The position numbers and the translations under genes are program-made. This document shows, in pieces, positions 26,317-58,073 of a stretch of DNA of 64,000 bases; position 1 is the first letter of the stretch, and the number at the start of each line of letters is the position of its first letter. Source of the stretch: Mesorhizobium sp. YM1C-6-2 (GTDB lineage Bacteria > Pseudomonadota > Alphaproteobacteria > Rhizobiales > Rhizobiaceae). The DNA is taken from NCBI RefSeq assembly GCF_003666685.1, contig NZ_RCIZ01000008.1, positions 1-64,000 of the forward strand, read 5' to 3'. The notes beneath the pieces are model-generated. The model ran no database searches. It saw only the letters and a list, made by a program, of their open reading frames with translations, and was not told where the DNA came from.

Positions 26317-26332
26317 GTTGATTACTCCGTCC

Positions 26333-30450: not shown

Positions 30451-30542
30451 CCCATTGCCCTTAAGAGAGGCCGACGCCCGGGTACCCCTCCCCGGCGTCG
30501 GCTCAGGCGGGCCGGCTGTCGCGACCGGCCCGCCTGTTCAAA

Positions 30543-33500
30543 TCACAGGTCGAAATCGCTGGCCGTCAGAGTGTGGTGGCCCTTGATCTTGACCGTGAAC
30601 TCGGCGTCGTTGCCGCCATTCGTATTGCCCTCCACCAATGTGTAGTCCTGGCCCTGCCAGCTCTCGTGGGTGACCCTCAGGGCCCCAGCGGCATTGAAGC
30701 CGGAGCCGGTGACCAGCGTGAACTGGTGGTTGGCCGAGCCGATGTCGGCATCGATGCCCGAAAGGTCGATTCGATCGCCTGGCTGGAAGCCCATGATCGT
30801 ATCGCCGTCGGCATCCGCCGCCGACAGGAAGCGGAACGTATCGTTGCCGGTTCCGGCATCGATGACGTTGGCGGCGCTGCTGGCGGTGATCACGTCGTTG
30901 CCCGAGCCCGTCACGATGTTCTCGATGCCCCAGAGCGCATCCGACCCCGACTGGCTCGATGTCGCGCTGCCACGCCCGCCAGCACCGGTGCCGAGGTCGG
31001 CGGTGATGTTGGCGGTGATCGCCGACATGTCGAGCGTGTCCACGCCGTCGCCGCAGGATGCCGACATGCCGTCGCCCCAGTAGGTGTCGTCGCCATCGCC
31101 AGCCATGGCCAGGATGGTGTCGTTGCCGGCTCCGCCCTGTACGTGGTCGTTGCCCGTGCCGGCATCGATCAGGTCGTCGCCTTCGTCACCGAAGATACGG
31201 TCCGAGCCGCCGTCGCCGTAAAGCATGTCAGCGCCTGCCCCGCCGAGGATGTCGTCGTTGCCGCCGCCGCCAAAGGCCATGTCCCGGCCCTCGCCGCCCG
31301 ACAGGAAGTCGTCGCCGCCCTCGCCGCGCAGCACGTCATCGCCAGCCAGCGCTATGATGGCATCGCTCGATGTGGTGCCGAGCAGGGCATCGGCAACCGG
31401 CGTTCCAGTGATGGATCCGGGCGAGACGATACCAGTGTCGTCCTCGTCCTCCTCGTCGTCCTGGTCGTCGCCTTCGTCGGTTTCGTCGGTGTCATCGTCG
31501 TCTTCCGACGACTGGTCGTCGTCGACGGGAGGATTCCCGACATTGTTGTCGTCGTCTTCCTCCTCCTCGTCATCTTCGTCATGGTGGCCCGAGCTGAAAT
31601 TGGGCATGCCATGCGGAGCGACGAAGGTCAGCGAGTGACCGTCGCCCACCAGCTTCGTCAGGCCCGTCTCCTCGTCGATCGTGACGGCGTAGTCGGCGAT
31701 CGTCGCGCCGTCCGGCAACTCGATCACATCCTGCGGCCTCAGCGTGCCGATGATGGTGTCGTTGCCGCCGCGGGTCTTGAACACGATGCGGTGCTCCGAG
31801 AGAAGCGACGTGAGATTGACGGTGTCATCGCCCTCCGTGCCCAGGATGGTGATCGTGTTCGGCCTCAGGCTGGTCGTGGTATCGAAGTTGCCGTACATCT
31901 CCACGGTGTCGCCGCCGCCGAGACTGCCGCTGCCGCTCACCCCGTTGCCGTTGATCACGATCTCTTCGATCTCGATCAGTTCGGCGATCACCACCTCGGG
32001 GCCGTCGCCGACCTGGCGGGTGACGAAGATCTCGGGTTCTTCGCCCTGGATGGCGATCCCCCGGGCCACCGCCTCTTCCTCGGTGTAGATGCGGTAGGTT
32101 TCGGCCTCGTCGTTGCCGACGACCTGGAAGAGATCGCCCGCCGCTCCTTCACCGCCGCCGTTGATGATGTCGAAGCCATCGGTCTCGGTGCCTGCCGCAT
32201 TGGCGCGCCAGATGAACACGTCGTCATCGTTCTGCGGCGGCACCACGTCGTCGTCGGCGGTGCCCACATCATAGCCGCTGAGCGTGTCGTTGCCCAATCC
32301 GCCTATGATGACGTCGCCTTCATGGCCGCCGACGATGTCGTCGTCGCCATCGGTGCCGAAGACGATGGACGCCGTGTTTTCGTCGACCAGCCCGGCATTG
32401 GTGACGATGACGAGATCTTCACCACCCTGGCCGAAACGGAGCCGCTCGATGCCGCTCAGCGTATCGGTACCCTCGTTCCCGACGATATCCGTCACCGTGG
32501 CGAGCGCCCCGCCCGTGAGACCGAAGGTGTAGTTACCGGCCGGCCCGGAGAAGACTGCGACGTCCGCGTTGCCGGCGCCGCCGTTGAGCGTGTCATCGCC
32601 GGCGCCGCCTTCGAGCTCATCGTTGGCTCCACCGCCGTTGAGAGTATCGGCCCCCTCGTTGCCGATGAGGGTGTCCGAGCCAGCGCCGCCACCGAGCGTA
32701 TTGACCCCGGAATTGCCGATCAGCACGTTGTCGAGGCCATTGCCGGTGCCGTTGATATCGGCGGTTCCGACAAGCGTCAGATTCTCGACGTTGCCGGCGA
32801 CCTGCCCCGCGGCGCCGAGATTGCGGCTGACCGTGGAGACGATCGTGTCGATGCCGCCGCTGCCCGGCACCACGGTCGGATCCTCAGTAACGAAGTCACC
32901 GGCTTGCGTAACGACATAGGTGTCGTTTCCGGCGCCGCCGCCCATCGAATCGTTGCCAAGCCCGCCGACCAAGATATCGTCGCCGTTCCCGCCCCGCATC
33001 GTATCGTTGCTGTCGAAGCCGAGGACAAGATCGGCCGTAGCCGTTCCGTTCAGCGCCGCATTCACGGCATTGTCACCGCGTACGAGATTGTAGACGACAC
33101 TGCCGATGGAGGCGCGCTCAACGCTGATCAGCGTGTCGGTGCCGCCGGCGGTGCTTTGCACAGTCGTCGTGTTCGCGTCGACATAGGTGAACGTGTAGTC
33201 CTGTATTGACCCGGCCAGCACGATCGTGTCGTTGCCGAGGCCACCGTCCAGGATGTTGTTGCCAGCGTTTCCGGTGAGGCTGTTGTCGAGGCCGTTGCCG
33301 TTGCCGGCGGCAATCCCGTCACCCAGCACCAGGTTCTCGACATTGTCGGCCAGCGTCAGGTTCTCGACATTGGCGACGATCGTGTCGCTGCCTCCATTGA
33401 GCGCTTCCGTCACGACATCGCCGGCATCGTCAACCACGTAGGTGTCGTCGCCGCCAAGGCCCACCATCGTATCCGCACCGGCGCCGCCGTCGATGCGGTT

Positions 33501-36500
33501 GTCGTCGCCGTCGCCGGTCAGGTGGTCGCCCGAGGCGCTGCCGACGAGGTTCTCGATATCGATCAGCCGGTCGATGCCTGCACCGAGTGTGTCCTGTTCC
33601 TCGAACGGAGCGTTGCCGCCCTGGCCCGACAGCGAAACCGTCACCGGTCCCGCGGCGTTCGCATAGGACGCGGTATCGTTGCCCGCGCCGCCGTCGATGC
33701 GGTCGTTGCCAGCACCGCCCTCCAGCAGGTCGTCGCCTTGTTCGCCCCAGAGCTGGTCGTTGCCCTCGCCACCCCGCAGCGTGTCGTTGTCGAAGCCGCC
33801 GCGCAGGTCGTCATTGCCGGCGCCGCCATCCAGCACATTGGCCAGGCTGTTGCCGGTAAGCGCATCATTGCCGGAACCGGAGGTGACGTTCTCGACGCCA
33901 CGGGTAAACGAGAATCCCGTCGCCGCGCCCGAGAGCAGGTTGACCGAGACATTCTCATCCGTGTCGTAGATCAGCGTGTCGGTCCCGTGGTCGAGGCGGA
34001 GTTCGGCGGCCTCGACACTGGCGACTGTGGTGGAACTGTTGATTTCTGTGATTAGCCCCCCAGCCAGCGTGATCTGGACCTGGTCGTTCGCGCCGGGGCT
34101 GCTCCCGGTGATCCGCAGCGTATCCAGGCCGTCGCCGCCGTCGATGGCATCGGAGCCATGCCCGTTGCCATGGATGATGATGTCATTGCCGTCGCCGCCA
34201 TTGACCACGTCGTCGTCGAAGCCGCCGTCAAGCGTGTCGTCGCCCTCGCCGCCGTCGAGTTCGTCTTCGCCAGCGCCGCCATACAGCGCGTCATCGCCAT
34301 CGCCGCCCGATATGGCATTGTTGCCGGCGCCGGCCACGACCCAATCGTCGCCGACGGTGGTGCCGCCGTTGGTGATGCCGCCATTGGCGGCGTCGGTGCC
34401 GTCGCCGTCGCCGTTGTCGGCGTCGATAACCGGCAGATTGAGATCGATGTAGTTGCCGACGATCTGGGTCACCGCGGAGACCACTGTCTCCTGGGTGCCG
34501 CCGTCATCGGTGTAGTCGATGACCATGCGGAGATATCGGCCGACCAGTTCCGGTCCAGGCACGAAGCTGCGGGCGTTTCCGCCATCCTCGGCAGGAACGT
34601 CCACCCACGGACCGAGCGTCGAACCGGAAGACTGCCATCTATAGGTGAGCAGCCCTTCCTCGAAGGCGTCCGTGATGCCGTCCGGATCGTTGAAGGCGGC
34701 CGTCGCCGTCAGTTCGCGGCCCTCGGTCGGCGTCATGTCGCTGATGAGAACGGCCCCGGTGGGCGCATCATTCTCGCCAAGCACGACGTCGGTCGGCTGC
34801 GAAGTGACGATCTCGATCACGCCGCCGGCGTCCTGATAGGTGCCGAGCACGCGGATCCGCAGCCCGACATGATCGTCTCCGGGCGTAAAGGTGTTGCCCG
34901 ACACCCCCGGGATGTTGATGTAGTCGCCGGTCCCGTCGTTGCGCTCGATCTGCCAGCGGAAGGTTATCGTGGCGGGATCGACCGTTCCATCAGGGTTGTT
35001 GAGGTCGCGGATCGCAGCCGCATTGACGGTCAGCGATACGCCTTCCCGGGCAGGCAGCCCTTCGATCGTCAGCCGCCCCGACGGATCGTGGTTGCCGGTC
35101 TCGCGGATGGTGTAGATGCCGTCCGCGAACAGGATGCGCTCAATGCCCACCAGCGTGTCGGTGCCTTCGCTGACCTGCGGGTCGACTTCCTCCATCTCAC
35201 GCCGCGCGACAAAGGTCTTGTCGCCGACATGGGTGATCTCATACCAGTCGCGGTTGCCCGCGAAGATGGCCGTGTCGGTATCGTTGCTGGGATCCTCGTC
35301 GTATTTGATCTCGCGCTGGATGTGCATCTGGCTCGGCTTGATCACCCGGCCGAGCAGAAGCTCGCTGAGCGACTTGCCGACCCAGGCGGCCGGGATGGGA
35401 GTCCCGTCGCTGTCCACGTCGGTCGCCTGGAAGACGTGCTTCAGCGTGTCCACCGTGGCGATCTCGTTGGCAGCGTTGTTCTCCAGCGCATTGCCGGCGC
35501 CGTCGACGCCCACGATGCGGATGCGCACGTTCAGCCACGCATCGCCGTGGATGAAGTCGTCGCCGCCACGGCCCTCGATAAGATCGCTGCCGTCGCCGCC
35601 GATCAGCAAGTTGCCGGCTGTCCAGGCGACCTCCTTCTCGAGATCGACGTTCGGATCGGTATTCGTGTATTCGGCAAGGCCGAGCAGTTCACGCAGCCCG
35701 TCGATGCGGTTGACGCCGGCCTGGCTGAGATAGTGGTTCTCGTGCAGCTGCAGCTCGACCTCGATCTCCTCGTTCTGGCCACGGTCGTCGCCGCGAAGGA
35801 TGTCGTTGTGGTCCCAGCCCGACAGCGCTTCGGTCTGGTCGAAACGGTCGCGCAGGATATCGTCGGCGACGGTGGTGAAGATCGGGATGCGCATGTCGGC
35901 GTCGGCCGCCACCGCGCTCCCCTTGTAGATGGCCCAGTCGAAGCCGAACATGCCCTCGTTGCGCATGACGCTTTCGCCCTGGACCATGATGTCGTCGCCG
36001 GACTCGGCGTCGAAATCGTTCTCGTTCTCGCCGGCGATCAGCACGTCATGGCCGAGGATCGTCGAGTTGAAGAACAGTTCCGAATTGTCGCCGTTGAGGA
36101 CGTCGAAGCCGTCGCCGCCCTCCATCCAGTCGTCGCCCTCGTTGCCAAGCAGGAAGTCGTGGTCGAGGCCGCCGAGCATGAAGTCGTCGCCCTCGCCGCC
36201 GAAGACCTCGGTGGCGTCGACGCCGACCAGGAAGACATCCTTGCCGTCGCCGCCCATCAGCACGTCGAGGCCGTTGGAGTTGGCAATGACGTCATCGCCG
36301 CTCTCGCCCTTGATGAAGTCGCCGGTGTCGCCGCTGTCGGTGATGATGTCGTCGCCCGCGCCGCCGCTGACGAGGTCCACGCCGTGGCCGCTCTCGATGC
36401 GGTCGTCGCCGTCGCCACCCCAGATGCCGTCGTCGCCGTCGCCGCCGATGATCGTGTCGTCGCCATCCGTGCCGCCCATCACCATGTGCTCGCCGCCGGT

Positions 36501-39500
36501 GAAGCGCAGGTAGTTGGCGTCCGCCCCGGCCGTGCTCGGATCATCGCGCTGCACTTTCGCGCGAAGCGCCTCGAGGAACGGATCGTTGGCGCCCCAGGCA
36601 TTGTCGGCTGCGATTTGTGCATCGGGGTCGACCTCGAGAACGCCGTCATATTTGGCGAAGGAATCGAGGCCGATGTGATGGGTGACGATGTCGTCCTCGG
36701 TGCCGCGAATGCCGTCCGGACCAGGCTGCACCAGGTCGGTGTTGGCCATGATCATCTTCGCGAAGGCATTGTTCTCGAGTTCATTGAGCAGGTTGAGGCC
36801 CTGCGTCCGCGACAGATAGTAGAAGCGGTCGCCTTCCTGCAGGTTCTCCATCTGCAGTTCGAACACGGCGTTGAACGTGGAACCGAGCATGCCGCCGAAC
36901 GGCATGACCCGCTCAGCCAGGCCGCCGATCCAGAGGTCGACATTGTTGAGACCGGTCTCCTTGTTGGCCCATGCGCCGGTGCCGTTGAGGAAATCCAGCC
37001 TGTCGGCCGGCGCTGCGGTCGGCCGCAGCACATCCAGGCGAACGTCATCGACCAGTATCTGGTCGCCGCTGCCGCCGCCATGGACGATTTCGATGCGAAG
37101 GCCGAGGCCGTTCTGAGCGTTGGAGATCGTTCCAGTCTGGAGCGTGACGGTGGACCAGCCGCCGTCGGCGTCGGGCGCGCCCAGCGGCGCCGAAGCCAAT
37201 ACGTTGCCATTCTCGTCCACCAGCCGCGCCTCGCCGCCAGGCCAGCCTGCATCCATATCGTAGCGGTCTGCGATGTCGATCGTCAGGCGATAGCTGGCGC
37301 CCTCCTCAAGTGTGCCTGCCGCCTGCGAAAGGATCGCATTCGCGCTCAGCCAGGCGACGCTGGGTCCCGTGAGGCCGGCCGAATCCACCACACTCGGCGC
37401 CGGGGTAAAGAGGCCGCCTGTGCCGGTCAGCGTCCAGCCGTCCGGCGCCGACGTCGTATAATCCCCGAGCGGATCAACGATGACGGTTCCGGCGGGAGGC
37501 TCTTCGAACGTTCCGTTCGCAATCGCAACCGCCTCTTCCGTCTCCGACCCGCCGAAGCCGAGCAGCGTCATCGCCGCGTCGCGCTTCTCCTCCAGCGTGT
37601 CGGCAGCCAGTATCAGCGGGTGCTCGCCATAGGCGGCGATGAAGTTGATGATGGAGGCCGGCGTCTTGAGGTTGGCGGCGAAGTCGGCCCAGCTCTCATA
37701 GGGCTTGAGCCAGGTGGAGTTGCTTGCCGCGTAGAGCTGTTCCCTGGCCTCGTTGAGCGAGGGCACGCCGGCGTCCCGGCCGCGTGCGATGTTGATCGCC
37801 GCGAGATCGAGCGGCAGGCCGAGGAGGTTGTTGCGCAGCGACTCGACCACGAATTCGTCGATCGCGTTGCCATGCACGTAGGTCATGCCGCGGGCGATGG
37901 CTCCCGCCGCCTGTTCGGCGGAAATGCCGCCATTGTCGTCATACATGACGGGGTTGAGGAAGGCCTCGATCAGCCCGACATCGATACCCCAGTCAGCGAT
38001 GTCGATTTCGTTGCCGTCGGCGTCCACCGGATTGCCGGCCTCGTTGAGCGGCAGCAGCTTGAGGTGGTCGGTCAGCATGGAATGGCCGAACCGGTAGACC
38101 GTGTGCGCGAACTCGGCGAAGATCCCAGGGTTCACGTCGGTGATCGTGTTGAAGACGAAGAGGTCGATGTTTGGCTGGACCTTGCGGCCGAACTCCTCGA
38201 AGACCAGGTGCTGATACTGCATCTCGGTCGAGAAACGCCCGACCTGGAACAGCCGCTCGCCGTCCCACTGTAGCGTGGATGGATCAGCGGGCACCGTCTC
38301 GACATCGACCAGCAGCCATTCGTTCAGGAAGGCGATGTCGGCGTCGAGCCCGCTCGAGGCGATTTCGAGAATCTGCTTCTTGACCGAATCGACCTGCCGG
38401 TTGTGCTCGGCGTGGAACACGTGATGCACGGTGGTCAGGCCGATGTTCTCGTTGCCGCGCCCGTCGCCGGTGATGAAGTGCTTGTCGAGAAGCTCGTTGT
38501 CGTAGGCAGGCGCCAGATCCGGATTGTTCGGAATGGGATTGCCGAGCGGATCGGTCTCGGTGTTGATGTCGGGCTGCAGGATCGCGGGCTGGCCGTTGAC
38601 GGTACCCACCGGGTTCGCATTGTGGGCGATGTCGTCGAGGAATTGGTGCGCCGTGCGGACGGGCCCCAGTCCGCCATTGATGTCGGCGAGCACGATCGGA
38701 TTTCCCGGCGTGGCGCTGACCGTGAGGTCGTCGGCGGTGTTCGGGATCAGGTCCGGACCGATGTTGTAGACGACCTGCGGGAAGCCGTCCGGCCCGCGGA
38801 TGAATTCGCCATAGGCATCGGTGAGGATCAGCGGCACGCCGAGGACGTCGATGTCGCTCAGGACGATGCCCAGCTTCTCCTCGGCCTGGGTCTTGACGTC
38901 CGCCCAGGTGGCGAGGCCGCCATTGACGCCGTCGAGCAGGTGTCCGGTGGCCATCGGCTTGCCGTCCACCATCGTGTATTCGCGCAAGAACACCTGATGC
39001 GAAGGATGTGAGGTGTAGGTCTGGTTCTGGTCCACGAAAGGCGTGGTCTTGTTCTTGGCCTCCATCGTGTCGTCGGCGGTGCCGAGCACCCCGTCCGCAC
39101 CGGGACCAGCCTCCGGCTTCAGCCGGGTCAGCGCCATGAAGGCCAAGTGGGGCGGCACTTCGTCTCCGCTGCCGGCGATGCCGTCAGGACCGTGCGTGCG
39201 GAGCGGGTCGTCTTCTGCCAGCGGCACGAAGATGGTGCCGTTGTCGCCCTTGTGGATGAGGTCGAGACCGTGATCGAAGAACTGGCCGAAAAAGGTCATC
39301 CAGCCGTTGAACGGCGCCGACAAGCCCTCGTCCGGGGCGACGTTCGGCAGCACGATGCTGTTGCCGTCCATCTCGATGCCGTAGTCAGCGACGAGAGCCG
39401 CGTCGAGAACGGCCTTGAAGGGTTCGGCGACGCCGTCGATCGCAGCTTTCTTTTCCGCAGCGGTGGCCCCGGGTGCCAGAGCCGCAAGCGCGGTGGCCAC

Positions 39501-40100
39501 GGGTCCGGCGATGTTGGCCAGGTAAGTTTGGTAGAGTTCCTGAATGGCGTTGACCGCCGCCAGCACGTCACCGTCGTACTCGGCATATTTCAGCGCTGCC
39601 ATGATGGCGGCGGGGTTTTTCAGCGTTTGATCGACGATCAGGTTCGAGATGATGCGCGGGTCGGAATCGATCACGTTGCCGGTGTGGCCGCCGTTCGATC
39701 CCGGAAGCGCCGGGTTTGCCGGATTTCCGCCGATCCCGTAGTCGGTGTTATCGACTACACCCCCGGGCGCAACCGGACCATTGATGTCGACCGTGCCTTC
39801 GTCCTGCTCGCTCACCCAGTTAGGCTGCAGCATTCTCGGCATGATCTGGTCGGACGCGCCCCACAGTTCGCGGCCCGGGATCAGGTTGTTGTAGCTGCCA
39901 TCCACCGTCCGCAGGCCGTAGGGCAGATGCGGCTGCGAGATGGCAAGCGTGCCCTCCGCGCCGTAGTTGCCGTCGCCGTCGATCCTGACGTGGAGCAGCG
40001 GAACGGCGTCTTCGCCCGCATGCGCGGTCGAGTTCGCCTCGGCGATCTTGATCTGCTTGAGGATGAACTCGAGGTCGTGCTGATTAAGTTTGACAGCCAT
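30543..40100 (-). CDS. Giant secreted animal-type haem peroxidase/RTX protein (MopA-like)
   Basis: 3,185 residues from the ATG at 40100 (GGAGGG 7 nt upstream). A peroxidase-cyclooxygenase domain starts near residue 240: distal His about 277 in TFFGQFFDHGLDL, HHVFHAEHNRQ near 560, proximal His about 673 in HTVYRFGHSML and LAAINIARGRDAGVPSLNEA near 785. A jelly-roll, carbohydrate-binding-like module (about 853-1030) interrupts the domain, which resumes with NVDLWIGGLAERVMPFGG. RTX repeats follow (about 1207-1347), two Ig-like repeats (about 1673-1887), a long RTX array (about 1890-2620), an Asp/Glu linker (about 2840-2890), more RTX and a serralysin-type C-terminus ending LTASDFDL, the type I secretion signal. 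This layout matches Mn(II)-oxidising peroxidases (MopA) of Aurantimonas, Erythrobacter and Roseobacter; halide oxidation or antibacterial action are alternatives. Confidence 0.9.
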   Translation of the reverse strand: MAVKLNQHDLEFILKQIKIAEANSTAHAGEDAVPLLHVRIDGDGNYGAEGTLAISQPHLPYGLRTVDGSYNNLIPGRELWGASDQIMPRMLQPNWVSEQDEGTVDINGPVAPGGVVDNTDYGIGGNPANPALPGSNGGHTGNVIDSDPRIISNLIVDQTLKNPAAIMAALKYAEYDGDVLAAVNAIQELYQTYLANIAGPVATALAALAPGATAAEKKAAIDGVAEPFKAVLDAALVADYGIEMDGNSIVLPNVAPDEGLSAPFNGWMTFFGQFFDHGLDLIHKGDNGTIFVPLAEDDPLRTHGPDGIAGSGDEVPPHLAFMALTRLKPEAGPGADGVLGTADDTMEAKNKTTPFVDQNQTYTSHPSHQVFLREYTMVDGKPMATGHLLDGVNGGLATWADVKTQAEEKLGIVLSDIDVLGVPLILTDAYGEFIRGPDGFPQVVYNIGPDLIPNTADDLTVSATPGNPIVLADINGGLGPVRTAHQFLDDIAHNANPVGTVNGQPAILQPDINTETDPLGNPIPNNPDLAPAYDNELLDKHFITGDGRGNENIGLTTVHHVFHAEHNRQVDSVKKQILEIASSGLDADIAFLNEWLLVDVETVPADPSTLQWDGERLFQVGRFSTEMQYQHLVFEEFGRKVQPNIDLFVFNTITDVNPGIFAEFAHTVYRFGHSMLTDHLKLLPLNEAGNPVDADGNEIDIADWGIDVGLIEAFLNPVMYDDNGGISAEQAAGAIARGMTYVHGNAIDEFVVESLRNNLLGLPLDLAAINIARGRDAGVPSLNEAREQLYAASNSTWLKPYESWADFAANLKTPASIINFIAAYGEHPLILAADTLEEKRDAAMTLLGFGGSETEEAVAIANGTFEEPPAGTVIVDPLGDYTTSAPDGWTLTGTGGLFTPAPSVVDSAGLTGPSVAWLSANAILSQAAGTLEEGASYRLTIDIADRYDMDAGWPGGEARLVDENGNVLASAPLGAPDADGGWSTVTLQTGTISNAQNGLGLRIEIVHGGGSGDQILVDDVRLDVLRPTAAPADRLDFLNGTGAWANKETGLNNVDLWIGGLAERVMPFGGMLGSTFNAVFELQMENLQEGDRFYYLSRTQGLNLLNELENNAFAKMIMANTDLVQPGPDGIRGTEDDIVTHHIGLDSFAKYDGVLEVDPDAQIAADNAWGANDPFLEALRAKVQRDDPSTAGADANYLRFTGGEHMVMGGTDGDDTIIGGDGDDGIWGGDGDDRIESGHGVDLVSGGAGDDIITDSGDTGDFIKGESGDDVIANSNGLDVLMGGDGKDVFLVGVDATEVFGGEGDDFMLGGLDHDFLLGNEGDDWMEGGDGFDVLNGDNSELFFNSTILGHDVLIAGENENDFDAESGDDIMVQGESVMRNEGMFGFDWAIYKGSAVAADADMRIPIFTTVADDILRDRFDQTEALSGWDHNDILRGDDRGQNEEIEVELQLHENHYLSQAGVNRIDGLRELLGLAEYTNTDPNVDLEKEVAWTAGNLLIGGDGSDLIEGRGGDDFIHGDAWLNVRIRIVGVDGAGNALENNAANEIATVDTLKHVFQATDVDSDGTPIPAAWVGKSLSELLLGRVIKPSQMHIQREIKYDEDPSNDTDTAIFAGNRDWYEITHVGDKTFVARREMEEVDPQVSEGTDTLVGIERILFADGIYTIRETGNHDPSGRLTIEGLPAREGVSLTVNAAAIRDLNNPDGTVDPATITFRWQIERNDGTGDYINIPGVSGNTFTPGDDHVGLRIRVLGTYQDAGGVIEIVTSQPTDVVLGENDAPTGAVLISDMTPTEGRELTATAAFNDPDGITDAFEEGLLTYRWQSSGSTLGPWVDVPAEDGGNARSFVPGPELVGRYLRMVIDYTDDGGTQETVVSAVTQIVGNYIDLNLPVIDADNGDGDGTDAANGGITNGGTTVGDDWVVAGAGNNAISGGDGDDALYGGAGEDELDGGEGDDTLDGGFDDDVVNGGDGNDIIIHGNGHGSDAIDGGDGLDTLRITGSSPGANDQVQITLAGGLITEINSSTTVASVEAAELRLDHGTDTLIYDTDENVSVNLLSGAATGFSFTRGVENVTSGSGNDALTGNSLANVLDGGAGNDDLRGGFDNDTLRGGEGNDQLWGEQGDDLLEGGAGNDRIDGGAGNDTASYANAAGPVTVSLSGQGGNAPFEEQDTLGAGIDRLIDIENLVGSASGDHLTGDGDDNRIDGGAGADTMVGLGGDDTYVVDDAGDVVTEALNGGSDTIVANVENLTLADNVENLVLGDGIAAGNGNGLDNSLTGNAGNNILDGGLGNDTIVLAGSIQDYTFTYVDANTTTVQSTAGGTDTLISVERASIGSVVYNLVRGDNAVNAALNGTATADLVLGFDSNDTMRGGNGDDILVGGLGNDSMGGGAGNDTYVVTQAGDFVTEDPTVVPGSGGIDTIVSTVSRNLGAAGQVAGNVENLTLVGTADINGTGNGLDNVLIGNSGVNTLGGGAGSDTLIGNEGADTLNGGGANDELEGGAGDDTLNGGAGNADVAVFSGPAGNYTFGLTGGALATVTDIVGNEGTDTLSGIERLRFGQGGEDLVIVTNAGLVDENTASIVFGTDGDDDIVGGHEGDVIIGGLGNDTLSGYDVGTADDDVVPPQNDDDVFIWRANAAGTETDGFDIINGGGEGAAGDLFQVVGNDEAETYRIYTEEEAVARGIAIQGEEPEIFVTRQVGDGPEVVIAELIEIEEIVINGNGVSGSGSLGGGDTVEMYGNFDTTTSLRPNTITILGTEGDDTVNLTSLLSEHRIVFKTRGGNDTIIGTLRPQDVIELPDGATIADYAVTIDEETGLTKLVGDGHSLTFVAPHGMPNFSSGHHDEDDEEEEDDDNNVGNPPVDDDQSSEDDDDTDETDEGDDQDDEEDEDDTGIVSPGSITGTPVADALLGTTSSDAIIALAGDDVLRGEGGDDFLSGGEGRDMAFGGGGNDDILGGAGADMLYGDGGSDRIFGDEGDDLIDAGTGNDHVQGGAGNDTILAMAGDGDDTYWGDGMSASCGDGVDTLDMSAITANITADLGTGAGGRGSATSSQSGSDALWGIENIVTGSGNDVITASSAANVIDAGTGNDTFRFLSAADADGDTIMGFQPGDRIDLSGIDADIGSANHQFTLVTGSGFNAAGALRVTHESWQGQDYTLVEGNTNGGNDAEFTVKIKGHHTLTASDFDL
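32250..34420 (-). repeat. Main RTX nonapeptide-coding array of the giant peroxidase
   Basis: Long run of degenerate 27-bp units coding for GGxGxDxxx repeats (for example GGAGNDTYVV, GGDGDDALYGGAGEDE), broken by spacer segments that carry ENLTL/NVENLVL strands. It corresponds to about residues 1890-2620 and should bind many calcium ions once outside the cell. Confidence 0.85.
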
Positions 40101-40121
40101 TTGAACACCCTCCAAAAATCG

Positions 40122-49507: not shown

Positions 49508-50290
49508 GTGGGGCTGTATGAACGGTGGTGCGAAGCCACCAAGGAGAAGGACAAGCGCAAGCGCTATTGGACCTATGTCGAGAAGGACGGCGGGCGCGCC
49601 GAGATCAGCGGCGATCTCGCCGAAACCATCCGCTCTCATTACAACCCGCTCGAGCTCATCGCCCAAGATGTGGCGCGACTCGGATACAAGGTTGCGGCCG
49701 AGATTCTGAAGGAGTCGATGCCGCAGACGGACAATGGTCGCTCCGGCGACCTCGGCGAGATTCTTGCCACGGAGCTGGTGGAGGAAGAGATCGGCCTGCG
49801 CGTCCCCGTGCGCCGGCTCCGCTACAAGGACGGCCGGAACATGGCCATGCGGGGCGACGACTTCATCGGGGCTGGATATGGCGGCGACGACGAGAAGCTC
49901 TGGCTCCTGAAAGGGGAAGCCAAAAGCAACAAGAAGCTCGGCAAGGCCACGGTGACAAGCGCACGCAAGGTGCTCGATCGCGACAATGGCCGCTGCACGC
50001 CCGACTCCCTCCTGTTCGTCGCTAACCGCCTGCTGGAGAGCAACGACCCCGACGAAAAGGCATTAGGTCGCGCCCTGCGCGACGAAGTGGGACTGAAGAG
50101 GCTGCGCGCCGATCGCATCGACCACATGCTTTTCACCGTATCGGGCAACGGTCCTCACGCCTCGCTGAAGGAGGACCTCGACGCTGCCGCGACCAATCGC
50201 GACCACTACGTCGTGAACATTCACGTCGAAGACCATCAGGACTTCATCGCGGCCATGTACGAGGGAGCCCAAAATCTTGGAGACGCCTGA
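49508..50290 (+). CDS. hamA: Hachiman defence protein HamA (DUF1837 nuclease)
   Basis: 260 residues from a GTG preceded by a GGGGGG run and an in-frame stop 24 bp upstream. NGRSGDLGEILATELVEEEI starts the DUF1837 core, with a conserved Glu. VPVRRLRYKDGRNMAMRGDD then gives the metal-binding Asp117, and LWLLKGEAKSNKKLG carries the E137-x-K139 nuclease motif. HamA is the nuclease effector of Hachiman, held inactive by the HamB helicase until phage DNA damage is sensed. It overlaps hamB by 14 nt, as expected for a two-gene system. Confidence 0.9.
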   Translation: MGLYERWCEATKEKDKRKRYWTYVEKDGGRAEISGDLAETIRSHYNPLELIAQDVARLGYKVAAEILKESMPQTDNGRSGDLGEILATELVEEEIGLRVPVRRLRYKDGRNMAMRGDDFIGAGYGGDDEKLWLLKGEAKSNKKLGKATVTSARKVLDRDNGRCTPDSLLFVANRLLESNDPDEKALGRALRDEVGLKRLRADRIDHMLFTVSGNGPHASLKEDLDAAATNRDHYVVNIHVEDHQDFIAAMYEGAQNLGDA

Positions 50291-53200
50291 GGAGCTGACT
50301 GCCTTCCTGGCCACCGCGACTGCCGACGGCATTCTCGGCCGTCTGCTTTATCGAGGCGCTGCGTGGTCGCTTATGCGGGAATCGGGCGTTTTGCCAGCGA
50401 CGGCGCCGGCGCTGGGCGCGGCGATCGAAACCGACCTTGCCGAACATGGCTTCGCCCTGCTTCGAGGCGCGATGGCCTTGCGCGCCCAGACTGGCGCGTC
50501 CGAGTTGACGAACAAGGCCTTTGAGCGCGCCGCCAACGCCTTTGAGGCCCTGGTGACGAACGGCGATCCCGAGGCGCCCGATCGCGGTTTTCGCCGCACC
50601 ATAGCGGCTGCCGCCTATCATCTCGCCGGCTATTCCGCGGTCGCCTATTCTCTGTTCAATGAGACGGCGGAAGACCTCAACTCATCGCCCGGCGAAACGG
50701 CGATCCGCCATCTCATCCTGCGCAATCTCGACCAGTTGCGCCGCTTTGTTCGCGATTGGCTTGGCGACACCGCACATGGCGACGAGCAGGTGGCCGAAAC
50801 GCTCGGCGCCGAGGACCCCGACATTGACGACGTATTGTCGATCATCCTGAACACGACGATCTGCCGAGCCCTAGCCTTCTTCGATTTTGCCCTGGAGACG
50901 GGAGAGGATGAGCCGATCGAGGCAGCGCTCGATCTGCTCGCGACCGCCATTAGGCTGGCTGACAACGCCGGGAACGTCCCCTTGTGGTGGATCTCGAAAC
51001 TCTGCCGGCACCTCATTGACGACCTCTGGCAGCATTCGCTACATCGGAACTTGCCGACCGAGCCGCCGGCCGGAACGGAGGAGAAATATCCGGAGCTCCG
51101 GCGGCTGTTCATCAGCTCGTTGTACGCCCGCAAGACGTCCGAGGTCGAGCTTTGGCCCTCCCAGCGCGAGGCCGCCCGGCGATCGACCGATGTCACAGAC
51201 GATCTGGTCGTGGCGCTTCCTACCAGCGCGGGGAAGACGCGCGTGGCGGAAATCGCCGCGTTGATGACCTTGTCCTCGGCCCGGCGATTGTTGATCGTCA
51301 CGCCGCTGCGCGCGTTGTCCGCCCAGACCGAACGATCCTTCCGCAAGACCTTTGCGCCCCTCGGGTTCAGCGTGTCGTCGCTCTACGGCGCCAGCGGCCT
51401 TTCGGCGGGCGATGAGGACGCCCTGCGCACGCGCGAGATCGTCATCGCCACGCCCGAAAAGCTCGACTTCGCGCTTCGGAGCGATCCTTCCCTTATCGAC
51501 GATGTCGGCCTTATCGTTTTGGACGAGGGTCACATGATCGGACCCAGCGAGCGCGAAATCCGTTACGAAACGCTGGTGCAGCGGTTGTTGTGCCGCGCCG
51601 ATGCCGTCGACCGCCGGATCGTCTGCCTCTCGGCCATCCTGCCCAGCGGCGACGAACTGGACGATCTCACCGCCTGGATACGTTCGGACGAACCGGGCGA
51701 GCCGGTGCGCTCCGACTGGCGGCCCACGCGCCAAAGGTTCGGCGCACTGACCTGGCGCGGCAAGGACGCGCTTTTGCGGTTTGACCTCGATGACGGCGGG
51801 CCCTTCCTCGACAAATTCGTCGAGCAGAAGCCGGCCCGCGGCAGGGAGAAGAAGCCCTATCCGCGCAAGAACTCGCACCTCGCCCTGTTCGCGGCGTGGG
51901 AATTCGCCGGCCAGGGCAAGCGCACCCTCATTTTCTCGACCCAGGCCAACTGGGTCGAGAGTTACGGCAAGCAGGTCGTTGATCTGTGCAAGCGCGGCTA
52001 TCTTGAGTCACTTCTCGAGGATGAAGCCCCGATCGCCCGGGCACTGGAGGTCGGCAAGGAATGGCTGGGCGACGACCATCCGGCGATCGGGAGCCTCAAG
52101 GCTGGCGTCGCCATTCATCACGGCCGCCTGCCGAGCCCGTTCCTGCGCGAGCTTGAGGTCCTACTGTCTGAGGGCGTCCTGAAGGTCATCGTCGCATCGC
52201 CCACCCTCGCGCAAGGGCTCAACCTCAACGCTGCTGTCCTGCTCGTTCCGGCGCTGTACCGGGCCGGTGAAAAGATCAAGGGCGAGGAATTCGCGAACGT
52301 GGCCGGTCGAGCCGGACGCGCTTTCGTCGATGTCGAGGGCCTGATCGTCCACGTCATGTTCGACAACACCGACTGGCGAAAAGGAGAATGGAAGAAGCTG
52401 GTCGACTCCGCGAAGGCTCGAACCCTGAAGAGCGGCCTCATCCAGATCGTCGCCGAAATTCTTGAGCGCCTGTCGAGGGAGGGTGTTCTCGATCGTGTAG
52501 ACGCCTGGGAATATCTCGCCAACTCCCGGGAGGCCTGGAGATCGCCGGGTGAAGAGGCCGAGGTGGCCGAACGTCTGGCAGCCGCCGCGGAGTACGATGC
52601 TGACGACGGCGACGACGAAGGCGATGACGAGGACGAAGGCGAAGACGAAGAGGAAACGATAGACGAAGAACCTCTGTCGCAGCTTGTGGAGCGCCTCGAT
52701 GCAACCGTGTTCGGCTTGATCGAAGCGCTGGATGCCGATCGCGCCGATCTTCCGAGACTGCTGGATGAGGCGCTCAAGGGATCGCTCTGGGCCCGCCAGA
52801 TCGCTCGCGAGGAAGAGGATGTCGCGCCGCTGCACAAGAAGGTGTTCGAGGCGCGTGCGGACCTCATCTGGAATACCACCACCGAACAATCGCGGCGCGG
52901 GCATTTCGCGATGGGGGTAGGCCTCGAGGCGGGCCTTTCGATCGACGCGATGGCCGATGTCCTGGCCGAGCTGGTCGACCGGGCCGATGGCGCAGCGCTG
53001 AGCGGAGACGTCGACGAACTCGCCGATGCTCTCGCCGGCTTGGGCGAGCGCCTGCTGTTCATGCGTCCCTTCATTCCCGACAAGAAAAATGCGCTGCCCG
53101 CCAACTGGAAGGCGATCCTGCGCTCCTGGGTCGCTGGTGAAGAGGTCTCGACGATCGGACCCCAGAACATGCGAGTGGTCGAGGAGGCCTTCACCTATCG

Positions 53201-53792
53201 GTTGGTCTGGGCGCTGGAAGCCATTCGCACCCGCCGGGTGTCTCTCGGCTGGTCGCCAGAGACCGTGGCGGGCGGCGCGGCTGCCGCGGTCGAAACCGGT
53301 GTCCCGCAGTTCATGATGGCAATGCTGATCCGGGCGGGCCTTCCATCGCGGCGTGCGGCCATTGCCGCCATTACCGACGCCCAACCAGTCTTCGTCACAC
53401 CGGCAGAGATGCGGGCTTGGCTCGAGTCCGACGAGATCACCGCCCACACCGATGCCGGTGACTGGCCCACGCCGGAAACCGCCGCACTTTGGGCGCGGTT
53501 CCGCACCGAGGCCCTTAGCGGCGGCATCCAGAAGTGGTCCGTCGAACGCTACCAGCGCCTGCTGGATATGAAGGCCACGCCGCCCGCAGGCCTCTATCGG
53601 ATTATCACCGACGAGGGAGACGGACGGACATGGCTCACGACCCCTGATTACCAACAGGTCGCTCCGTTCAGGAAGCCGGCGGTGGATCCCAAGCCAAGTC
53701 TCTTTTCCGGACGGCTCCCGGGAGACACCAGGCTGGTCGATGCCCAGCGCGTCGGCCGCGGGAAGTTGCGGTGGCCGCGTGCCGATGCATAG
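50277..53792 (+). CDS. hamB: Hachiman defence helicase HamB
   Basis: 1,171 residues, TTG start with GAGGGAG upstream. An N-terminal helical domain (about 1-290) precedes a superfamily 2 Ski2-like helicase: Walker A VVALPTSAGKTRVAEIAALM (about 311-330), VTPLRALSAQTE, motif II LDEGHMIGPSE, then ASPTLAQGLNLN and FANVAGRAGRAF in the second RecA-like domain. An acidic linker (about 770-795, Asp/Glu-rich) and an extra C-terminal helical region follow. HamB scans DNA and controls HamA. The order and overlap with hamA fit the known system. The acidic linker is distinctive. Confidence 0.9.
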   Translation: METPEELTAFLATATADGILGRLLYRGAAWSLMRESGVLPATAPALGAAIETDLAEHGFALLRGAMALRAQTGASELTNKAFERAANAFEALVTNGDPEAPDRGFRRTIAAAAYHLAGYSAVAYSLFNETAEDLNSSPGETAIRHLILRNLDQLRRFVRDWLGDTAHGDEQVAETLGAEDPDIDDVLSIILNTTICRALAFFDFALETGEDEPIEAALDLLATAIRLADNAGNVPLWWISKLCRHLIDDLWQHSLHRNLPTEPPAGTEEKYPELRRLFISSLYARKTSEVELWPSQREAARRSTDVTDDLVVALPTSAGKTRVAEIAALMTLSSARRLLIVTPLRALSAQTERSFRKTFAPLGFSVSSLYGASGLSAGDEDALRTREIVIATPEKLDFALRSDPSLIDDVGLIVLDEGHMIGPSEREIRYETLVQRLLCRADAVDRRIVCLSAILPSGDELDDLTAWIRSDEPGEPVRSDWRPTRQRFGALTWRGKDALLRFDLDDGGPFLDKFVEQKPARGREKKPYPRKNSHLALFAAWEFAGQGKRTLIFSTQANWVESYGKQVVDLCKRGYLESLLEDEAPIARALEVGKEWLGDDHPAIGSLKAGVAIHHGRLPSPFLRELEVLLSEGVLKVIVASPTLAQGLNLNAAVLLVPALYRAGEKIKGEEFANVAGRAGRAFVDVEGLIVHVMFDNTDWRKGEWKKLVDSAKARTLKSGLIQIVAEILERLSREGVLDRVDAWEYLANSREAWRSPGEEAEVAERLAAAAEYDADDGDDEGDDEDEGEDEEETIDEEPLSQLVERLDATVFGLIEALDADRADLPRLLDEALKGSLWARQIAREEEDVAPLHKKVFEARADLIWNTTTEQSRRGHFAMGVGLEAGLSIDAMADVLAELVDRADGAALSGDVDELADALAGLGERLLFMRPFIPDKKNALPANWKAILRSWVAGEEVSTIGPQNMRVVEEAFTYRLVWALEAIRTRRVSLGWSPETVAGGAAAAVETGVPQFMMAMLIRAGLPSRRAAIAAITDAQPVFVTPAEMRAWLESDEITAHTDAGDWPTPETAALWARFRTEALSGGIQKWSVERYQRLLDMKATPPAGLYRIITDEGDGRTWLTTPDYQQVAPFRKPAVDPKPSLFSGRLPGDTRLVDAQRVGRGKLRWPRADA

Positions 53793-54072: not shown

Positions 54073-54579
54073 CTACTTCCTCGTTGGATCGTGCTCGATC
54101 ACGCGCGGGCCGGCCAAGCGCTCCAATTCTTGATGCACTCTCCCGAACTGCAAGACGTTCTTCTTCACCACCTCAGCCTGGCGCTCGGCTGTCGGCGGTC
54201 CCGCGGCCGTGTTGGCGCTGCGATCGCCTAGCATCTCGTGCGTCAGTGTCGGAAGATCCTTGAAGCCGAAGCATTCCAGGATGAACATCTGGCCCTGCAT
54301 TGCTGACCTGATGTCGCCGGCCTCACGGGCGTCTCTGACGAGCGAACGCAACATTTGCATCTCTTCGCGAGCGTTGATGGCGGCATGTTCGACGATACGG
54401 CTGACCTGCTTTTGCTGGATCTGCGCGACGCGGGCTTTGATGCTCTCATTTGCACTCAAACGCGCAGCATTGCCACGGTGAGGTTTGTAGCCCGCCGCGG
54501 CATATGCCTTTTCGGCACTGAGTCCCTTCGCGAGTGCTTGTGCCACACGTTCGTGCTTGGCGTTCTTCAGAACTGGCAT
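54073..54579 (-). CDS. Terminase small-subunit-like protein
   Basis: 168 residues from the ATG at 54,579. The start MPVLKNAKHERVAQALAKGL, then SAEKAYAAAGYKPHRGNAAR and LSANESIKARVAQIQQK, is the helix-turn-helix pattern seen in phage terminase small subunits and related DNA-binding proteins. The rest is helical. No large terminase or structural genes are present, so it may serve DNA binding in replication or packaging as a satellite. A TTG at 54,693 would extend it and overlap the previous gene. Confidence 0.65.
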   Translation of the reverse strand: MPVLKNAKHERVAQALAKGLSAEKAYAAAGYKPHRGNAARLSANESIKARVAQIQQKQVSRIVEHAAINAREEMQMLRSLVRDAREAGDIRSAMQGQMFILECFGFKDLPTLTHEMLGDRSANTAAGPPTAERQAEVVKKNVLQFGRVHQELERLAGPRVIEHDPTRK

Positions 54580-54658
54580 TGTGTTATGCGTCTTTATCCA
54601 TTGGAGCTGATCGCGAGTACATTGACTTGCGGGAACGTGTTGTGGCGATCCGTCGGAG

Positions 54659-54970
54659 TCATGCCGCTCCCCCGCCGTGCTCAGGGATGTCAATGGTCGG
54701 ACGCCACCGCGAGTCGATGACCTCGCATCGTTCGAAGATTAAGCGCTTGAACACCTCCGTTTGCCGGCTGGCGACTGACGCGGATAAGCCCGCCCGAATA
54801 AGATGATCGTGATACGAAACTAGGGCCCTCGTCAGGATCCAATCCGCTTCCTTGTTCGTGCGGGCCTTGGAAAGTTGATGCGCCACCTTGAAGGCATGCC
54901 CCTTCCGCTTGTCAGCCGGGAATGCGATGACTTTGCAGGGAGCCGACCAATGGGGCAAATCAAGCTGCAT
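54659..54970 (-). CDS. DUF6074-like small protein
   Basis: 103 residues with CKVIAFPADKRKGHAFKVAH near the N-terminus, then ILTRALVSYHDHLIRAGLSA. The I-x-FP...R start and helical remainder resemble DUF6074 proteins found in rhizobial accessory DNA. Function unknown. The start overlaps the end of the winged-helix gene by 11 nt, so it belongs to the same operon. Confidence 0.55.
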   Translation of the reverse strand: MQLDLPHWSAPCKVIAFPADKRKGHAFKVAHQLSKARTNKEADWILTRALVSYHDHLIRAGLSASVASRQTEVFKRLIFERCEVIDSRWRPTIDIPEHGGGAA

Positions 54971-55748
54971 CTTCGCGCGCCTCCCCTCCGCTCAGCGACA
55001 TAGACGACGCCGTGGCGCGAACGAGTTCATTGACAGCTGCCCTGGCTTCCGCCGTGGTGCGCGCGCTCTGCGCTTGCCCGCTCTTGGAGGCGGGCTGGCG
55101 CGCAGCCCCGCGCACCGCCGTAGGTGTATGGTAGGATAAGGATGTCACGCTTTCCGTGACGGCCTGGGGCTGAGAAATGCCCTTTTCGTCACGGTTTTCG
55201 TGACAGGGCGTCACGGTTTCCGTGACAGCGTGAGAACCGTTCGTCACGGTTTTCGTGACGTTGCCGTCTCGGTTTTCGTGACAGGTTTTTGTTCTGTGGC
55301 CATTCTTTCCGTTGGGGTTGTTTGCCGATGACATTGCTATCGGGAAGTCACGTCCAGGCTCCCAGCTTCGATATAGCTTACGGCCGTCACCGTCCGTTCG
55401 CGGCATCTTCAATTCGGTGATCTCGTAGGCAGGTGATCGTGCCGCGCCGTCAACACCAAGGCTGCCAGGCTCGGTCTGGACAATGAAGCCCTTGCGCTGG
55501 AGATCACGGAACGCCTCTGCCGCGGTATCGGGGCGCACACCCAGCTTCTCGCCTGCCTGCCGGACGCTTAGCCGAAGCTTTCCGTTGTTATTGGCTTCAG
55601 GCCCGCGCCATTCGAACTTGATCCAAGGATATAGCGCCTGGGCTGTAGAAGAGAGCGCCTTCCAAGCTGGCGTTTCCATCGTGACACGAAGCATTTTCGT
55701 CCAATGTTCACCTCTCGGTGAGCGGTTCCTGCCGCTTTTCGTCTTCAT
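54960..55748 (-). CDS. Winged-helix protein with internal iterons (replication initiator-like)
   Basis: 262 residues. The N-terminal half is a winged helix-turn-helix (WKALSSTAQALYPWIKFEWR, SVRQAGEKLGVRPDTAAEAF, RDLQRKGFIVQTEPGSLGVD). The middle (about 155-205) is low in structure, with the alternating peptides VTKTVT, VTETVT, VTESVT and CHENRD. These are read from five copies of one DNA palindrome in different frames. The C-terminus is Ala-rich. The layout, an N-terminal DNA-binding domain with iterons inside its own gene, recalls lambda O and similar phage initiators. Its ATG overlaps the stop of the 58-aa gene (TGATG). Confidence 0.65.
   Translation of the reverse strand: MKTKSGRNRSPRGEHWTKMLRVTMETPAWKALSSTAQALYPWIKFEWRGPEANNNGKLRLSVRQAGEKLGVRPDTAAEAFRDLQRKGFIVQTEPGSLGVDGAARSPAYEITELKMPRTDGDGRKLYRSWEPGRDFPIAMSSANNPNGKNGHRTKTCHENRDGNVTKTVTNGSHAVTETVTPCHENRDEKGISQPQAVTESVTSLSYHTPTAVRGAARQPASKSGQAQSARTTAEARAAVNELVRATASSMSLSGGEAREDAA
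55144..55282. repeat. Five palindromic iterons inside the winged-helix gene
   Basis: GTCACG-N5-CGTGAC occurs at 55,144-55,160, 55,188-55,204, 55,210-55,226 and 55,243-55,259, and with one change (GTCTCG) at 55,266-55,282. The 5-nt spacers are CTTTC, GTTTT, GTTTC, GTTTT and GTTTT. Start-to-start distances are 44, 22, 33 and 23 bp, close to multiples of a helical turn, and mostly not multiples of three, so the DNA site rather than the peptide is conserved. Confidence 0.8.
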
Positions 55749-55924
55749 CAGTGGGTGCGCGCCCGTATCAGGTGCGCCTCCCTGCTTGGGGCGGCGGCTT
55801 CGTGAAGGTTGACGCCGAAGCGTTCGCGCAACTGCGGGACGGCAGGGCGCCGATTGTCGTGGTCGCCGAGCACGAGCCAGCGAGCGGCTTCAAGGACCTT
55901 CGGGTCCATCTCCGACGCGATCAC
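55748..55924 (-). CDS. 58-aa coupled protein, unknown
   Basis: A short gene with GTG start overlapping the stop of the AlpA-like gene (GTGA) and a TGA overlapping the ATG of the winged-helix gene. The product (EMDPKVLEAARWLVLGDHDN, then QLRERFGVNLHEAAAPSREA) resembles small helical proteins that occur with such modules in rhizobial islands. The double overlap shows translational coupling and supports it as real, although it is short. Confidence 0.65.
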   Translation of the reverse strand: MIASEMDPKVLEAARWLVLGDHDNRRPAVPQLRERFGVNLHEAAAPSREAHLIRARTH

Positions 55925-56205
55925 GCCTGATCCCGCTCAGCCGTGGAGTTCACCGGCTTTGAGAGTCGCTCAAGCACATGGCGGTCGAGCGCATCCTCTT
56001 CGTAGTAGGGAATGCGCCCGAAATACCGTATCGGCGGCCCCCCACCTACGGATGCCGCTTTAGCTAGCGTGGCCTCCGCCATTTTGATGCCGTGCTTTTC
56101 TTCAAGATATTTTGGCACTTCCCTACGCCGCAAAAGGCGTTTCGGTTTCACGTCGTCAGGCACGATGGGGTTTGCGGACGGCGCGGCCAGTGGTATGCTC
56201 GACAT
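55921..56205 (-). CDS. AlpA-like helix-turn-helix regulator/excisionase candidate
   Basis: 94 residues from the ATG at 56,205, which has AGGGAG upstream (the longer start at 56,238 lacks it). RLLRRREVPKYLEEKHGIKM and the following ATLAKAASVGGGPPIRYFGR form the winged or MerR/AlpA-type DNA-binding domain; the end is YYEEDALDRHVLERL. Such proteins act as recombination directionality factors or transcription regulators of integrases in islands. First gene of the leftward operon. The AT-rich stretch at about 56,270-56,345 is its probable promoter. Confidence 0.75.
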   Translation of the reverse strand: MSSIPLAAPSANPIVPDDVKPKRLLRRREVPKYLEEKHGIKMAEATLAKAASVGGGPPIRYFGRIPYYEEDALDRHVLERLSKPVNSTAERDQA

Positions 56206-56403
56206 TATGGTCGGCTCCCTAAAAAGAGTGGGCTTCATCGGGGAATAAGCGGTCAGGTCGCCAAACGTGAGCCGCTTATTTCTCGTTTTTATGCATTCAG
56301 TTTAACTTGTTCGCGATCGACTATTTTTATAGCATATTTCCGGTAGTCACCGAAGGCCCCGATCACACGTTCCTCAAAAACCCAACGAATAGGGTGCCCG
56401 ACT

Positions 56404-56609: not shown

Positions 56610-57884
56610 CTAAGCCCGCCTCGACATATCCAATACCTTTGCCGAATAGCCGGTCATTTGGCGCCAGATTTCCCCGCTGACCCGATTTGCTGCCGCGACC
56701 AGCACCGTGTCGAGCCGGTGAATGTACCGGCTGGTCACCGTCCCAGCGGTATGGCCTAGCATGGCTGCGATAGTGCTTTCAGCAAAGCCAAGGTCGCCAG
56801 CAACAGACGCATAAGAATGGCGCATCGTGTGTGGCGTAACTCCCTCCAGTGCCGCCCGATTCATCAACCTCACCCATGCCCCGGCGAGGCCCTTGTAGTG
56901 GCCTGTCTTTCGTAGCGCGGGCAGAACGTAGGGGATTCCGGGAACGCGCAGGGCGGTCCGCAACACGTCGAATGCTTCCCGGCCCACCGGACGTACTGAT
57001 GGGCCGCTTTTGCTGTCGGCCAGCCGGAAGCATTGGCCTTCTTCGTCAACCTCTGACCAGCGCAGCGCTTCAATCTCTCCGAGGCGACATCCAGTGAGCG
57101 CCAGCAGCCAGGCGCCTGTCACGGCTTGGGGTGTGTCATATTCCGTCGCAGACCGGCTCAGAGCCTGTCCCAGTGCCCTGTATTCGTCTGCTATCAAGCG
57201 TCGTGACCTCACGCCATCGGCTGGCAACTTGACGCCCTGAGTCGGGTTGCTAGTAATGATACCCTCGTCGACAGCGTAGGTTAGGATGCCGCCCAAGAGC
57301 CCCGTGGTGCGTGCAGCTGTACCGATGCCGCCTTTCACCTCGACTCGAGCTCCGTTTTTGCCGGTGCGGTTCTTCACAGCTGTCTTTCCCGCGGAAATGT
57401 CGCGCATGAACTTGGTGATATCCGCGCGGGTGAGGTCGATCACGAGCTTGTTTCCGAGAAGCGGTTTGATGTGTCGGCAAATTCTGCCGCGGTCGATCTC
57501 GAGCGTGGACGCCTTCTTTGGACGGTTCTTGCGCCTACCAAGTATCAGCCCACTCTCTGCCGCCCTCATATATCGGTCGCAGAGCTGCGCCACCTTCAGC
57601 GATGCGCGCCGGGTCCTCCGCTCAAGCAGCGGATCGGCCTTCTGAAGCGCTACTGGGCCGAGCGTCTGGATAGCCAGGGCGCGCGCCGCCTCTGTGGTCA
57701 GGACACCGTGCCGCCCGATAGTCATGCGTCGCCGTGCATTGTCGACGCGGTAGTCGACAAAGTAAGTTTTCGACCCGGAAGGCTGGACGTAGAAGCCGAA
57801 GCCCTTCAGTTCGGAGCACCACACAGTGTATTGCTTGTCGCGAGGACGGGCAGCATCCACGACCTTCTTGGTGAGTTTTGGCAC
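56610..57884 (-). CDS. int: Tyrosine recombinase (island integrase)
   Basis: 424 residues, full length for the phage-integrase family. The N-terminal arm-binding domain (about 1-90; YFVDYRVDNARRRMTIGRHG) and SAM-like core-binding domain (about 95-205) precede the catalytic domain with Arg267 (LTGCRLGEIEALRW), His352-Thr-Met-Arg355 (PHTMRHS), His378 (MLGHTAG) and nucleophile Tyr387 (SRYIHRLD). It lies just inside attR and reads into the island, as usual for site-specific integrative elements. It should catalyse integration into comM at the 18-bp core. The AlpA-like gene is a plausible directionality partner. Confidence 0.95.
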   Translation of the reverse strand: MPKLTKKVVDAARPRDKQYTVWCSELKGFGFYVQPSGSKTYFVDYRVDNARRRMTIGRHGVLTTEAARALAIQTLGPVALQKADPLLERRTRRASLKVAQLCDRYMRAAESGLILGRRKNRPKKASTLEIDRGRICRHIKPLLGNKLVIDLTRADITKFMRDISAGKTAVKNRTGKNGARVEVKGGIGTAARTTGLLGGILTYAVDEGIITSNPTQGVKLPADGVRSRRLIADEYRALGQALSRSATEYDTPQAVTGAWLLALTGCRLGEIEALRWSEVDEEGQCFRLADSKSGPSVRPVGREAFDVLRTALRVPGIPYVLPALRKTGHYKGLAGAWVRLMNRAALEGVTPHTMRHSYASVAGDLGFAESTIAAMLGHTAGTVTSRYIHRLDTVLVAAANRVSGEIWRQMTGYSAKVLDMSRRA

Positions 57885-58055: not shown

Positions 58056-58073
58056 GCCCAAGGAAGGCAGCCA
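58056..58073 (+). other. attR: right attachment site
   Basis: Second copy of GCCCAAGGAAGGCAGCCA, followed by TTACGACC (the left copy has CTATGACC). It begins the genuine comM 3' sequence. Confidence 0.9.

Follow-up and report, generated by a model that had tools for sequence, protein, structure and literature searches.

A 64,000-nt stretch of Mesorhizobium sp. YM1C-6-2 (NZ_RCIZ01000008.1, GCF_003666685.1; hereafter the window) contains a winged-helix gene with five phased DNA dyads in its 3′ half. The best reading of this arrangement, and in our judgement a very probable one, is a replication initiator gene with an internal origin. That the gene holds the probable binding sites of its own protein, as a sequence-only reading of the window had proposed, is strongly supported by sequence comparison and modelling: the array geometry is conserved, the DNA is conserved past the stop codon, the dyad arms co-vary with the predicted recognition helix, family searches with the relatives return replication initiators, and the predicted fold is initiator-like, matching RepA_N initiators.

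Results and discussion

The dyad array and its flanks

The gene and the elements within its 3′ half are as follows (numbering on the forward strand).

54960 to 55748, minus strand: putative initiator gene, 262 aa, winged-helix N-terminal half, predicted origin in the 3′ half (ORF, PHROG O-like matches, relatives' families, AlphaFold2, Foldseek, VIA-align)
55283 to 55292, minus strand: flank directly 5′ of iteron 1, ACAAAAACCT (conserved across arrays; an A-rich run precedes it)
55266 to 55282, minus strand: iteron 1, GTCACGAAAACCGAGAC, one mismatch (pattern search)
55243 to 55259, minus strand: iteron 2, GTCACGAAAACCGTGAC (pattern search)
55210 to 55226, minus strand: iteron 3, GTCACGGAAACCGTGAC (pattern search)
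55188 to 55204, minus strand: iteron 4, GTCACGAAAACCGTGAC (pattern search)
55144 to 55160, minus strand: iteron 5, GTCACGGAAAGCGTGAC (pattern search)
55128 to 55143, minus strand: flank directly 3′ of iteron 5, ATCCTTATCCTACCAT (conserved across arrays)

Each dyad spans 17 bp and follows the general form GTC-N11-GAC, here GTCACG-AAAAC-CGTGAC. The five GTCACG-N5-CGTGAC repeats described earlier were recovered with their spacings of 44, 22, 33 and 23 bp (forward coordinates): four copies, at 55144, 55188, 55210 and 55243, are exact, and the fifth, at 55266, reads GTCTCG-N5-CGTGAC and thus has one mismatch. In the sense of the gene, dyad 1 is located at 55266–55282 and dyad 5 at 55144–55160. The four exact dyads proved to be the sole exact copies in the whole genome (5,511,628 bases searched), and a reversed control pattern gave 0 matches in the same genome. 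With up to one mismatch allowed, the gene contains 5 dyads, compared with a maximum of 1 in 2000 dinucleotide shuffles of its sequence.

A strongly AT-rich melting region was not found beside the array, the 30 bp downstream being 53% AT versus about 40% farther out. We also considered the TTATCCTACC flank as a DnaA box and did not adopt this assignment; the match to the E. coli box is 7/9, and the inner length is variable.

The same array recurs in relatives

Profile searches returned 39 genome loci, mostly from Rhodobacterales and Hyphomicrobiales, 26 in viral contigs, and additional loci in genomes from the order to which the window strain belongs. Forty-nine arrays, including that of the window, passed a filter that required three or more GTC-N11-GAC sites. 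Across these genomes and viral contigs, the position of the five dyads in the gene is constant and their spacings are 22–23, 32–33, 22 and 44–45 bp. The outer bases of the dyads are nearly fixed, 211 of the 245 sites keeping GTC-N11-GAC, and the inner three arm bases are variable (ACG in the window; ATG, ATC, ACC, CCC, TTC and others elsewhere). Close homologues that lack the repeats had been named as grounds for dismissing the proposal; in those we inspected the array is present and its arm sequences differ.

The flanks were counted in 48 arrays, the window included, after one locus of doubtful fit (L019) had been dropped; a few of the 48 are duplicate contigs. CCT or CCC stands directly 5′ of dyad 1 in all 48, ATCCTTA directly 3′ of dyad 5 in 43/48, and ACCA follows at the usual distance in 45/48. 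The combined element ATCCTTA-N-TACCA (window 55128–55143) is almost invariant across relatives that differ in their iteron arms. In seven loci (L008–L010, L064, L083, L101 and L102) the array seemed absent at first and became visible once the alignment was anchored on the downstream flank; in L071 it is decayed. An out-of-sample case came from a collection outside those used to define the geometry: the Mesorhizobium plasmid pMspAR02b carries GTC-N11-GAC sites spaced 23/32/23/44 in a gene annotated as a hypothetical protein.

More distant relatives of about 25% identity (L014, L025, L031 and L032) show a related layout of four dyads with spacings of 21–22, 52–53 and 43–44. The genome of the window itself encodes an initiator-like distant paralogue (L117 520–1440, C1:921 kb; about 26% identical), and its internal repeats differ in sequence, as expected for compatible replicons. 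One Mesorhizobium relative is split inside the gene between two contigs (L011, G209 contig C54, 12–278, and G209 contig C53, 124415–124731), so that its array is not readable as a whole. Queries with the window protein and one relative (L061) detected no relative among 50,697 GenBank phage records, and a literature search of partial coverage returned nothing specific on this initiator family.

Conservation acts on the DNA

The copies had been noted to fall in different reading frames, and they indeed occupy two, encoding CHENRD and VTxTVT. The ORF of nearly all relatives ends no later than the interval between dyads 2 and 3, and the array is kept nonetheless, so selection acts on the DNA. The array and both flanks persist whatever the frame. 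The array is thus conserved at the DNA level, as had been claimed. The window gene is unusual in that its frame, like that of relative L053, stays open through all five dyads. Such an open frame is what one would expect if the repeats were a repeated peptide (VTxTVT/CHENRD) kept for protein function. However, the dyad copies lie in two frames, nearly all relatives stop within or ahead of an array that they retain, and downstream flank lengths vary irrespective of frame. On these frame and stop data we rejected a peptide repeat, to which we assign practically no probability.

Recognition-helix residues co-vary with the dyad arms

The following parts of the protein were delimited in an AlphaFold2 model.

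55404 to 55691, minus strand: predicted winged-helix domain, about residues 20–115 (AlphaFold2, block pLDDT 76–97)
55494 to 55532, minus strand: predicted recognition helix, residues 73–85, with residues 72 and 74 at its start (AlphaFold2 and covariation)

The association between protein and arm sequence was assessed by a partial Mantel test on 43 non-redundant arrays and 104 protein columns, corrected for overall protein distance. Residues 74 and 72 ranked as the top two of the 104 columns for arm similarity, with partial r values of 0.455 and 0.344 (mean across columns 0.019, sd 0.095). C occupies arm position 4 in 12/12 cases with Lys74, compared with 3/32 with other residues (Fisher 2e-8); Asp/Glu74 goes with AT arms and Arg72 with ACG. 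Lys74 must have changed 8 times or more on the tree. When the count is confined to well-supported branches, the Lys74/C association is represented by 5 independent pairs, of which 4 agree and 0 disagree (sign test p 0.125), too few pairs for significance. Since the arms co-vary with recognition-helix residues 74 and 72, the gene's own product is most likely the protein that reads the dyads, as judged from these sequence correlations.

Fold and family of the protein

The N-terminal winged helix that had been read from the sequence is supported by the AlphaFold2 model, which predicts helices at residues 34–46, 62–69 and 73–85 together with a strand pair (block pLDDT 76–97 over residues 21–140). 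For the C-terminal part, the model predicts one helix (residues 225–251). The four best structural matches in VIA-align are all RepA_N initiators (Z 8.5–9.8 over 100–107 residues), and the top Foldseek matches are RepA_N initiators as well (E 8e-4 to 2e-3). At the profile level, the window protein gave no match to Pfam RepA_N (PF06970), and 3/66 relatives match it weakly (best E 0.006). Pfam HTH_36 (PF13730) was matched by 39/66 relatives. Among PHROG families, 28 of the 66 relatives matched 'DnaD-like helicase loader', 21 'replication initiation protein' and 10 'O-like', the latter weakly (best 2e-7).

Weak Pfam matches to generic HTH, MarR and Crp-like families would also suit a regulator, with the array serving as an operator or transcription roadblock in its own gene; sites inside the gene could block the gene's own transcription, and no origin would then be required. 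We consider such autoregulation very unlikely, given that the site is absent from any promoter elsewhere in the genome, that an operator would not need as many as five phased dyads, held in a fixed long-range geometry between two fixed flanks, and that the family matches and best folds point to replication initiators.

Comparison with known initiators

The arrangement had been called lambda O-like. This holds for the plan: lambda carries 4 iterons of 18 bp inside O (spaced 20/24/23, versus five 17-bp dyads in the window), just after the DNA-binding part as in the window gene, and its dyads likewise have the form arm-AAAA-arm. It does not extend to a demonstrated homology. A profile comparison with lambda O was insignificant (hhalign probability 0.1%, E 0.41), and lambda differs from the window family in having an A-rich stretch beside the iterons, a P-binding domain at the C-terminus of O, and gene P. 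Most relatives end within the array and have no C-terminal helicase- or primase-recruiting domain. No P-type loader gene adjoins the initiator gene in the window, where the next genes encode a DUF6074 protein and a TerS-like protein, and BLAST clustering found no conserved downstream loader gene across the relatives' loci; at the BLAST threshold used, DUF6074 clusters in only 3 loci.

According to the model, RepA_N/DnaD-type initiators are a closer structural match than lambda O. The staphylococcal RepA_N plasmid initiators pSK41 RepA and pTZ2162 RepA, the best fold matches, share the winged-helix N-terminal domain. Their semi-palindromic iterons around an A-tract and their origin inside rep are features of the window array, too; in RepA_N systems the inverted repeats that form the iterons converge on a poly-A tract (PMC7145576), and pSK41 has four Rep boxes inside rep (PMC5703833). 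The gene plan thus resembles those of lambda O and pSK41 RepA, yet homology to lambda O is not demonstrable. The window family differs from RepA_N initiators in its five dyads with fixed 22/33/22/44 geometry and in its residence in integrated mobile elements of Alphaproteobacteria rather than on plasmids. Moreover, pSK41 RepA has a host-specific DnaG-binding domain at its C-terminus, whereas most members of the window family end in the array without such a domain. The N-terminal domain of pPR9 Rep contains HTH_36 (PF13730), found also in the relatives, and has a phage replication protein as a relation (PMC5703833), but Rep is a plasmid-borne chimera with the C-terminal domain of pSK41. The PLE satellite of Vibrio cholerae offers a RepA_N-type initiator, RepA, encoded by a phage satellite in the chromosome of a Gram-negative host (PMC7145576); it differs in its iterons, which lie in a non-coding region, in its large serine recombinase and in its need for phage ICP1 to replicate. 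Finally, the pri-rep-ori modules of PICIs resemble the window island in combining integrase, initiator, ori and sometimes TerS on an integrated island (PMC6092414).

The island and its neighbouring genes

The initiator gene belongs to an element of about 33.4 kb that splits yifB and is bounded by two copies of an 18-bp repeat, starting at 24622 and 58056.

24622 to 24639, no strand assigned: left attachment core GCCCAAGGAAGGCAGCCA, inside yifB (repeat comparison)
49508 to 53792, plus strand: Hachiman defence genes HamA and HamB (PADLOC)
54073 to 54693, minus strand: terminase small subunit-like (TerS-like) gene (PHROG_51, E 5.5e-11)
54659 to 54970, minus strand: DUF6074 gene, overlapping the 3′ end of the initiator gene (Pfam PF19551)
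55921 to 56238, minus strand: small ORF between integrase and initiator genes, AlpA/excisionase-like by eye (sequence and position; no Pfam or PHROG match)
56610 to 57884, minus strand: tyrosine integrase of the island (Pfam Phage_integrase, PHROG_1)
58056 to 58073, no strand assigned: right attachment core, the same 18 bp as the left (repeat comparison)

An integrase with flanking att sites is present as in phage satellites (PICI-like). There is a TerS-like gene, but the island holds mostly non-phage cargo. ORF reading of window positions 24976–40115 indicated a 3190-aa RTX-repeat protein and type I secretion genes (ABC transporter, HlyD-like ORFs), and the Hachiman system lies directly beside the replication module and the TerS-like gene. 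A DUF6074 gene also follows the initiator gene in Mesorhizobium AR02, according to annotation; by eye, the N-terminus of DUF6074 (LPLF/QLDLP-like in relatives) resembles a clamp-binding motif. Among the relatives' loci, 39 have an integrase nearby and many have terminase, portal and capsid genes that differ from locus to locus. We rejected the array as a set of integrase arm sites because of its position: it lies about 2.8 kb from the att site, beyond int, and travels with the initiator gene.

Lambda TerS is a winged-helix protein, and in the window a TerS-like gene lies just downstream of the initiator gene. The array might accordingly be a packaging (pac/cos) site for the downstream-encoded TerS, with the winged-helix protein incidental or terminase-like, and the terminase, portal and capsid genes that neighbour the array in many relatives fit this idea. 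However, those genes differ between loci, which disfavours a packaging site: the same array stands beside unrelated types (phrog_9 and phrog_2/979 terminases, a phrog_21712 head protein). In addition, the arms co-vary with recognition residues of the very gene that contains them, and a TerS family was matched by 1/66 relatives, against 28 and 21 for the initiator families. We thus regard a packaging site as highly improbable and retain the reading as initiator and internal origin.

A further alternative concerns activity rather than the origin assignment: the island may have degenerated and lost the ability to excise or replicate, leaving initiator and origin as relics. In favour of this, capsid genes, which many relatives have, are absent from the island, and its cargo is unrelated. 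Against it stand an intact integrase, an intact initiator ORF, two intact 18-bp att cores, and a full set of five dyads with both flanks. A relic is unlikely in our view, though less so than the other alternatives.

Proposed mechanism and implications

We propose that the product of the gene is a replication initiator whose winged helix is of RepA_N/DnaD type and whose dimers would bind the five phased dyads in their own gene and form a fixed nucleoprotein complex, the origin being defined at the DNA level. The ATCCTTA-N-TACCA flank would mark one edge of this complex and may be a site of melting or of host-factor action. Once the integrase had excised the island, the initiator complex would let the circle replicate with replisome proteins of the host or a helper phage. 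Dyad binding, melting, replisome recruitment and autonomous replication, including that of the excised island, are steps that we infer; the missing AT-rich stretch and the missing recruitment domain are the weak points of the origin reading.

More tentatively, with chances that we put a little short of even, the relatives may belong to an extensive and so far uncharacterised family of minimal alphaproteobacterial initiators, consisting of a winged helix only and having the stop codon inside the origin. Its members would share a fixed five-dyad architecture. Their recognition code would have diversified into a multitude of specificities that are compatible with one another and are determined mainly by two residues of the helix and three bases of the arm, and replisome recruitment would proceed without any known C-terminal domain for it.

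The origin reading provides a concrete replication module for integrated, often satellite-sized elements of Alphaproteobacteria. Its fixed geometry and diversified arms amount to a natural experiment on the co-evolution of initiator and origin under compatibility, and the protein–DNA recognition code becomes testable at two residues. If these initiators truly have no recruitment domain, the route by which the helicase is loaded becomes an answerable question.
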